64,000 nt of DNA, taken from assembly GCA_014621425.1 (NCBI GenBank), contig JAANBB010000203.1, positions 1 to 64,000 on the forward strand, in the 5' to 3' direction. A model generated the notes under the pieces. That model was not told where the DNA came from. It did not search any database and was given only the letters and a program-made list of their open reading frames with translations. This stretch comes from Cylindrodendrum hubeiense. Taxonomy: Eukaryota > Ascomycota > Sordariomycetes > Hypocreales > Nectriaceae. Numbering within the stretch: the first letter of the stretch is position 1; the number at the start of each line of letters is the position of its first letter. The position numbers were made by a program, and so were the translations under genes. Of this stretch, positions 20,619 through 27,683 are shown piece after piece.

Positions 20619-20690
20619 AGGTCGCGGAGGGAGTCGAACCCTCGCTGGCGGAATCAGAATCCGCAGTCATAGCCGTTAGACCACGCAACC
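20619..20690 (-). tRNA. tRNA-Gln (anticodon CUG)
   Basis: The reverse complement folds into a full cloverleaf: acceptor GGTTGCG/CGCGACC (one T-G pair), D-stem GTC/GAC, anticodon stem GCGGA/TCCGC with loop TTCTGAT (anticodon CTG, codon CAG), T-arm GAGGG-TTCGACT-CCCTC, and T as discriminator base. There is no intron. A run of five T (plus-strand A 20612-20616) just past the 3' end is a Pol III terminator. Confidence 0.96.
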
Positions 20691-26581: not shown

Positions 26582-27557
26582 GAATAAATATCACCCGCTC
26601 ATGCTGATGCTGGAGTGAGGAGAAAAGGTAAGCCGAGGAGGGAAAGAAGCGGAAGTACAGGTGACATGATTCATGTCTGCCCAGCATAAGACGAGGATCC
26701 CTGTCCGACGGCCGAGATGAAGCTGTCGCCCGGGCGGGTTGCATTTGTTCAGGGTCCGTGGATCGGCACCCCACCGCGGAGCAAATCCGCGCTTCTCTAT
26801 TTTATCTTCATTCGGCTCTTCGTGTATGCTACTCCGTACATCTACTGGAACAGTGATTCGGTAGCGCACAATATTATGGGAGGTCTAACAGAGAGCGGCT
26901 AGTATGCATTGACCAAATTGACTAGCAGTAATAAATGCATTGGTTATCCCAACTGTGGCGCTACTCGGTGCGACTCCCTTGCTCCGAACACCAGGCTCAA
27001 TGATGGAATCGTGGCTATCAGTGAGCTTATGATTGTGGCCTTTATGGGTGCGAATGGAGATTATATTTCGATGAGTCTCCCTGGTCCCTCGTGGGGCCGC
27101 CTCGCGCTGTAGGGTTAGCTGTCTCGGCCGGTCACGGCGGAGTTCCGGTCCTCTCGGGATCACAACCAAACCATCCAAAGTTTCGTTTCGAGGACGCCAA
27201 TAAAAACTTGTATCATTCAGGTACAGCATTTCAGGTACAGCATCTTGGGCTTTGCGTTTTCCCTCGTGCCAGCCGGCCGTGGCAGCTGAAGATATAAACG
27301 GACGTAAAAACAAGACACTTCAAAAAGCCATGATAGTAATAGCAACTAATATGTACACTCTGAAGCTATTCATTCAACTGGAACCGTCTTCGCCAATACA
27401 CTCTAGCGGATGATTACCTGCCAGGTCAGTCTAGAACTAAAAAGGTAGCTTCCTGGAAGGGATCGGCGTTCCGGCGGGCCCCCGCATCCGACCCGCAACA
27501 TATTTAGTTCTGACAGTGAAACACCAGCATGTAAATCCCGCAAAAAGAAGGGTTATG
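26582..27557. other. Intergenic: flavin monooxygenase promoter side
   Basis: No gene is supported. Short open frames lack motifs. It ends at the tRNA-Asn terminator. Confidence 0.5.
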
Positions 27558-27683
27558 CTCCCCGAGATGGGCTCGAACCATCAACCTCTCGATTAACAGT
27601 CGAACGCGCTCTTTAGAATTGTTAGTACGATATTTATCAATCGTAGAAATTGTGTAACTTACAGCCAATTGCGCCATCGGGGA
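27558..27683 (-). tRNA. tRNA-Asn (anticodon GUU) interrupted in the D-loop by a spliceosomal-type intron
   Basis: On the minus strand, exon 1 is 27663-27683 and exon 2 is 27558-27610. Removing 27611-27662 leaves 74 nt that fold perfectly: acceptor TCCCCGA/TCGGGGA, D-stem GCGC/GCGC with GG in its loop, anticodon stem TTCGA/TCGAG with loop CTGTTAA (GTT), T-arm GATGG-TTCGAGC-CCATC, discriminator G. The 52-nt insert starts GTAAGT, holds TACTAAC ending 10 nt before its 3' end, and ends AAAG. This is the layout of a nuclear pre-mRNA intron, not of the usual tRNA intron next to the anticodon. The A box (TGGCGCAATTGG) and B box (GGTTCGAGCCC) are intact. The insert has no run of four T. TTTTT (plus-strand A 27542-27546) follows the gene as terminator. 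Confidence 0.9.
27611..27662 (-). other. 52-nt intron-like insert in the tRNA-Asn D-loop
   Basis: Donor GTAAGT (plus-strand ACTTAC, 27657-27662), branch-site consensus TACTAAC, acceptor AAAG. The insert sits between the T and A of the D-loop (GGCT|A). Only this donor/acceptor pair restores the GCGC/GCGC D-stem; using the AG two bases later would destroy it. The same donor and branch motifs occur in protein-gene introns of this window: GTAAGT in ATM1 and the flavin monooxygenase, TACTAAC in SPB4. Confidence 0.85.

Follow-up and report, generated by a model that had tools for sequence, protein, structure and literature searches.

The splicing of tRNAs and that of mRNAs are presented in teaching as two distinct pathways. 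Canonical nuclear tRNA introns, located at position 37/38 and cut by the tRNA splicing endonuclease, interrupt their genes between boxes A and B. Nuclear rDNA of ascomycetes contains spliceosomal introns, i.e., mRNA-type introns in a gene which is not read by Pol II, and these reside in Pol I transcripts, not in tRNA. As to small structured RNAs, the available text of PMC5832005 named U3 and U6 in 2017 as the only ones known to be often interrupted and regards the fungal U3 introns as ordinary introns of the spliceosomal kind, for which S. cerevisiae and N. crassa provide direct evidence. Disruption of tRNA genes outside 37/38, the D-loop included, is described in the accessible part of PMC3978253 for algae and nucleomorphs, in the form of ectopic bulge-helix-bulge (BHB) introns and of permuted tRNA genes, which are processed via the BHB by the endonuclease; spliceosomal introns are mentioned there once, for protein genes. 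The string 'spliceosom' is absent from the available text of the tRNAscan-SE 2.0 paper (PMC8450103), where noncanonical introns are discussed for archaea, and from that of PMC4090602 and PMC4033280, while the accessible portion of PMC11782384, according to which introns are known from all major RNA types, names no spliceosomal intron in tRNA.

The inserts described here, found in tRNA genes of Cylindrodendrum hubeiense (Nectriaceae), are like the introns of fungal U6 snRNA and U3 snoRNA, as far as the available accounts of the latter go, in having GT-AG ends and branch sites, in interrupting a small structured RNA and in the presence of paralogs with and without an intron in one genome. Unlike U3 and U6, the interrupted RNA is a tRNA, exon 1, apart from the leader, measures just 16-30 nt, and the spliced RNA has to fold into a cloverleaf. 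With canonical tRNA introns the inserts share the location between boxes A and B, differing from them in position, in the GT-AG ends and CTAAY motif, and in the endonuclease-type pairing, which the Arg and Cys genes lack and the Asn and Phe genes show only in part. The observation is real and genome-wide: the initial annotation had noticed a single gene, and the phenomenon comprises at least 19 genes of six isoacceptors. It is also undescribed in the literature searched, as no precedent for spliceosomal introns in tRNA genes turned up in full-text searches of open-access papers (judged by titles and the starts of abstracts; preprints and subscription papers lay outside the scope).

The tRNA-Asn gene of the window

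In the window, by which we mean the whole stretch of 64,000 nucleotides analysed, the initial annotation had placed a minus-strand tRNA-Asn gene consisting of exon 1, an insert and exon 2, and this layout is correct (Table 1; tRNA positions were numbered by hand). Excision of the insert was said to give a 74-nt tRNA-Asn; ARAGORN recognises the gene once the insert is removed and does not recognise the unspliced form with the intron option off, and the exact predicted spliced sequence is found as a 74-nt intronless paralog at C795:22775-22848. None of the alternative 52-nt deletions in the gene yields the same product, and inspection bears out that the use of the next AG would destroy the D-stem. 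Boxes A and B, reported as intact, were located, the internal T4 is absent from the gene, and the TTTTT said to follow it is in place. The unspliced gene was missed by Rfam at the gathering threshold and by ARAGORN with default settings, the only tRNA detected in the window being tRNA-Gln(CTG), an ordinary intronless gene on the minus strand at 20619-20690.

Table 1. Features of the tRNA-Asn locus (positions in the window)
Feature	Position	Strand	Basis
tRNA-Asn(GTT) gene of 126 nt including a 52-nt insert; spliced form 74 nt	27558..27683	-	sequence, self-match, ARAGORN on the spliced form
Exon 1: acceptor 5' strand, D-stem 5' strand, D-loop up to nt 20a (hand-numbered)	27663..27683	-	sequence, spliced form
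Box A, TGGCGCAATTGG	27665..27676	-	sequence, comparison with consensus
Putative intron, 52 nt, GTAAGT...TACTAACAATTCTAAAG	27611..27662	-	sequence, splicing analysis
Putative 5' splice site, GTAAGT	27657..27662	-	sequence
TACTAAC motif of a putative branch site, whose A would be at 27622, 11 nt from intron end	27621..27627	-	motif scan
Putative 3' splice site, AAAG	27611..27614	-	sequence
Exon 2, A21 to discriminator; same in all 6 Asn genes found	27558..27610	-	copy comparison
Anticodon GTT	27595..27597	-	sequence, ARAGORN
Box B, GGTTCGAGCCC	27569..27579	-	sequence, pattern, comparison with consensus
Pol III terminator-like T5	27542..27546	-	sequence

Intron-bearing tRNA genes across the genome

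The search of the draft assembly (47.5 Mb, 798 contigs) for tRNA-Asn genes with and without the insert, as proposed by the initial annotation, gave six places by an anticodon and T-arm pattern with up to three mismatches. The window gene together with its insert, used as a DNA query, matched the identical six genes and nothing else, i.e., it revealed no introner-like copies; the Arg(TCT) and Arg(CCT) genes described below matched themselves only, this test having covered the Asn and these two Arg families. Five of the six Asn genes are interrupted at one and the same site, by inserts of 51-54 nt, and the sixth is the intronless gene already mentioned. Donor GTAAGT, branch motif CTAAY and acceptor AAAG each recur in all five inserts, so the signals pointed out by the initial annotation are not due to chance. 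The exons of the copies differ nowhere, the intron cores are 0.52 identical (range 0.41-0.69) vs 0.48 for shuffled cores, and the upstream DNA has diverged to an identity of 0.53. Thus, what was found is not the set of intact tRNA-Asn genes beside a decaying window copy that the initial annotation had regarded as damaging to its reading. Four tRNA-Asn genes, three with and one without the intron, lie in a cluster at C795:20378-24729 beside tRNA-Pro and tRNA-Glu genes. All five Asn introns end in AAAG rather than YAG, and their ends (27611-27616 in the window) can pair with TTGG of the D-loop in 3 or 4 of 4 pairs.

tRNA-Phe(GAA) occurs at nine places, eight of them intact, and in seven of these eight genes an insert separates nt 20 and 21; the remaining one, on C557, is intronless. 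Twelve exon differences over 21 pairs of copies (mean identity 0.992) all trace to the copy on C111. The Phe intron cores are less random than those of Asn, with an identity of 0.60 vs 0.48 shuffled (range 0.36-0.91), and four Phe introns have an additional CTGAC near the AG. The ninth place, C31:41620-41650, is a decayed copy, in which several exon bases, the GT donor and the AG acceptor are lost and the CTAAC motif is kept; it represents a natural control. By inspection, all eight intact tRNA-Phe genes, also the one without an intron, have a mismatch (G-A or G-G) at acceptor-stem pair 5-68.

Among nine tRNA-Arg(ACG) places, four genes, forming a tandem array on C129, have an insert after G19 and five lack it, one of the latter (C85:8284-8355) being equal to the spliced C129 form. 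The exons of these copies are 100% identical, with identities of 0.56 vs 0.47 shuffled for the intron cores and 0.58 for the upstream DNA. tRNA-Arg(CCT), with an insert before G18, was found by pattern at a single place. tRNA-Arg(TCT) on C508 is interrupted between nt 31 and 32; it might have been taken for the sole, and hence essential, copy, which is ruled out by a second Arg(TCT) gene in the C246:38755 region. Because the latter has an anticodon-loop intron, introns of the endonuclease type and of the spliceosomal type seem to coexist within this isoacceptor. Finally, the tRNA-Cys gene on C155 has an insert between nt 24 and 25, and three intronless Cys genes are located elsewhere; the C155 gene, a divergent copy standing alone, shows an acceptor-stem mismatch on inspection and counts against the spliceosomal reading given below.

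The 19 intron-bearing genes, which belong to six families (Asn, Phe, Arg(ACG), Arg(CCT), Arg(TCT) and Cys) and are thus not independent of one another, are spread over 12 contigs. An assembly artefact or contamination, which the draft state of the assembly in 798 contigs might suggest, has negligible probability in view of so many genes with differing introns on different contigs and of the C795 cluster, where one intronless Asn gene is mixed with three intron-bearing ones. Each copy recovered by exon sequence is either intronless or fully signalled (5+1 intron-bearing and intronless for Asn, 7+1 for Phe; four and five, respectively, for Arg(ACG)), with the exception of the C31 copy; the exon patterns are blind to Phe or Asn genes with an anticodon-loop intron.

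The detection routes were a pattern of branch site, AG and box B, its version with a relaxed box B, and exon-based patterns. The number of 19 is a lower bound, because most of the patterns demand CTAAY and the common T arm; the Rfam tRNA search scored 63 of 1339 candidates. The first pattern gave 33 matches (control 16), 11 of them intron-bearing tRNAs and the rest ordinary tRNAs or taken as chance; C612, C50:664, C90:109403, C300, C159 and C490 were dismissed by eye (with the C50:58962 and C585 sequences left out). The relaxed version gave 51 matches vs 75 in the control, 15 of which are intron-bearing tRNAs by their 3' halves, the others being judged by eye. No new case was seen by eye among 31 matches of an exon-based pattern (control 16) and 18 of a further pattern (control 21). 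A pattern of box A and donor matched 139 times vs 129 in the control; among the matches listed, 30 loci were examined and ARAGORN found a tRNA in one, the Asn gene on C90, and three further places (C100, C334 and C423) are not tRNA according to both ARAGORN and visual inspection. In viral and genome contig collections, the exon-donor junctions of Asn and Phe gave 0, 0, 0 and one bacterial contig (Lacicoccus). A cluster of AT-rich, organelle-like tRNA genes on C360 is probably mitochondrial DNA.

Probable splice signals and the endonuclease alternative

All 19 inserts are 51-57 nt long and have GT-AG ends. The donors are GTAAGT (7), GTAAGC (4), GTATGT (4), GTACGT (2), GTACTT (1) and GTATGG (1), and the acceptors ACAG (6), AAAG (5), TCAG (4), GCAG (2), CTAG (1) and CCAG (1). 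The CTAAY motif, counted where its A sits 8-16 nt from the intron end, is present in 19/19 vs about 0.05 per shuffled intron; the recovery of the Cys gene alone depends on a pattern demanding CTAAC, 18 of the 19 having been recovered independently of it by exon sequence or, for Arg(TCT), by a match on its own anticodon loop. The A lies 11 nt from the intron end in seven inserts, 12 nt in five and 13 nt in seven, and an AG intervenes between branch and acceptor in 2/19. According to ARAGORN without intron search, all 19 spliced forms are tRNAs with the expected anticodon and none of the unspliced forms is; with intron search, the program accepts the C90 Asn and C508 Arg genes unspliced. The removal frame is unique in the Asn and Arg(TCT) genes and ambiguous by 1-2 nt in the other 13, GT-AG being among the options. 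The insert sites (about 16/18, 19/20, 20/21, 20a/21, 24/25 and 31/32) are each confined to one isoacceptor, the Asn and Phe inserts both lying directly before A21, and none of the 19 is at position 37/38, the canonical site of tRNA introns.

For comparison, 11 putative mRNA introns of three window genes, obtained by spliced alignment to Ilyonectria proteins with GT-AG ends and a length of 40-220 nt imposed by the aligner, measure 45-86 nt, a range in which the insert lengths fall under these limits; CTRAY is present in 9/11 of them at 9-18 nt, and one has an AAAG acceptor. The Atm1 protein of the window matches Ilyonectria at 94%, and a flavin monooxygenase encoded there is 100% identical to a Cylindrodendrum hubeiense protein across 88% of the query.

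Considering these features, the inserts are very probably U2-type spliceosomal introns in Pol III tRNA genes, gained repeatedly and removed by the spliceosome, and the two suggestions of the initial annotation, namely an mRNA-type intron in a tRNA gene and its removal by the spliceosome, both appear to fit best. Pol III would transcribe from boxes A and B through to the T-run, the intron separating the boxes much as a canonical tRNA intron does. The spliceosome would recognise GTAAGT, the CTAAY branch site and the AG, excise 51-57 nt as a lariat and join the two pieces of the tRNA, and most of the tRNA-Phe genes found and some tRNA-Arg and tRNA-Cys genes would follow the same route. Since each insert site has its own isoacceptor, five or six separate gains would have taken place, followed by duplication inside the families. 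A self-splicing group I or II core was not found, the inserts being 51-57 nt long and no such Rfam family being present in the window or in seven loci scanned.

Several observations count against the spliceosomal reading: the acceptor AAAG of the Asn introns departs from the common YAG; CTAACCTTCACTG is common to six of the seven Phe introns, i.e., conservation there extends beyond the splice signals; and the Arg(CCT) insert splits the box A consensus before GG. The endonuclease-like pairing in Asn and Phe also counts against it, as it is not explained by spliceosomal splicing. At endonuclease spacing, exon 1 pairs with the intron end in 4, 3, 4, 4 and 3 of 4 positions in the Asn genes and in 4, 4, 4, 4, 3, 3 and 4 of 4 in the Phe genes. 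The central 4-bp helix, which in a BHB lies between two 3-nt bulges, is complete in 8/19 genes, each of them Asn or Phe, vs 5% in a slid control, the only control of this comparison (mean 3.00 vs 1.54). This pairing would be expected if the inserts were tRNA introns at ectopic positions that the tRNA splicing endonuclease cuts at BHB motifs, with GT-AG and CTAAY incidental. Nuclear tRNA genes of the red alga Cyanidioschyzon (C. merolae) have BHB introns in the D-loop or T-loop, and nucleomorph introns often occur without a defined BHB, as stated in the available text of PMC3978253. The BHB inner helix, though, amounts to 0-1 bp in 19/19, the central-helix pairs are low in the other families (2, 3, 3 and 1 of 4 in Arg(ACG), 1 in Arg(CCT), 1 in Arg(TCT) and 2 in Cys), and the presence of GT-AG and CTAAY in every insert, given the near-random cores of Asn and Arg(ACG), is left unexplained; we therefore consider cleavage by the endonuclease unlikely. 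Folding of the precursors gave no interpretable common intron structure beyond the pairing of exon 1 with the intron end.

Transcription, function and gene supply

A run of T5 or longer starts at most 22 nt downstream of 18 of the 19 genes (background 1.6-1.7%) and by about 40 nt in all of them (background 1.6-2.9% over both distances). The box A consensus, checked in one gene for each isoacceptor, lies inside exon 1 in five of the six and is split in Arg(CCT), and box B or its near form is present in the intron-bearing genes according to the search patterns. TTTT is found in none of the 19 inserts (expected 2.7, P 0.047); as a signature of Pol III this avoidance is weak and makes no special mark, because only one of the 11 mRNA introns has TTTT. 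The terminators and intact boxes A argue against the alternative that Pol II reads these genes, or longer transcripts containing them, and that the spliceosome acts there before the tRNA is cut out. Such a scheme would suit the usual coupling of splicing to Pol II, the short tandem arrays in which four Arg(ACG) and three Phe genes lie, and the cut that the insert makes in the box A of Arg(CCT); the longest stop-free stretch around the window copy, of 139 codons, speaks against it, and on balance we find it very unlikely. We infer Pol III transcription, actual splicing and, on strong grounds offered by the sequences, the spliceosome as its agent.

In the Asn and Arg(ACG) families the conserved parts of the inserts are the two ends and the branch motif. 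The inserts must presumably be removed, because the exons of these two families show no differences despite the divergence of introns and upstream DNA, because the decayed C31 Phe copy lost its splice sites together with exon bases, and because Asn and Phe were each found with a single intronless gene vs 11 for Asp(GTC), with Asn and Phe making up 3.2-4.4% and Asp 5.2-6.0% of residues in the proteins counted. The same facts, together with a downstream T-run in each of the 19 genes, oppose the view that the insert-bearing copies are pseudogenes or silent and that all the work falls to the intronless Asn and Phe genes. Intronless genes do exist, a single one for Asn, a single one for Phe, and more than one in the case of Arg(ACG) and of Cys; this view is nevertheless highly improbable.

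If the spliceosomal reading is correct, the cell probably uses the mRNA-splicing machine to finish a part of its tRNAs, contrary to textbooks. It is likely that this fungus, and perhaps its relatives too, requires the spliceosome as a tRNA-processing machine, that most of the Phe and Asn genes and the sole Arg(CCU) gene found depend on splicing, and that introns entered repeatedly, at five or six sites between the promoter boxes or at their edge. Were tRNA genes dependent on the spliceosome in this way, translation capacity would be directly coupled to splicing. One genome seems to use both kinds of introns, of the endonuclease type in some tRNAs and spliceosomal in others: ARAGORN reports anticodon-loop introns in, e.g., Pro, Glu, Ala, Gly, Arg(TCG) and Leu genes. 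In this system the dependence of the spliceosome on Pol II or on a cap could be tested directly, and intron gain could be studied cleanly, with paralogs of both kinds, intron-bearing and intronless, occurring together.

Functional genes may go uncounted when the tRNAs of such fungi are tallied, because the Rfam tRNA model scores most of the genes described here below threshold. In a permissive Rfam scan of seven loci the unspliced genes mostly fell below the gathering score of 29; the exceptions that passed were the Cys gene, at 44.2 bits, and a part of one Asn gene, at 29.3.
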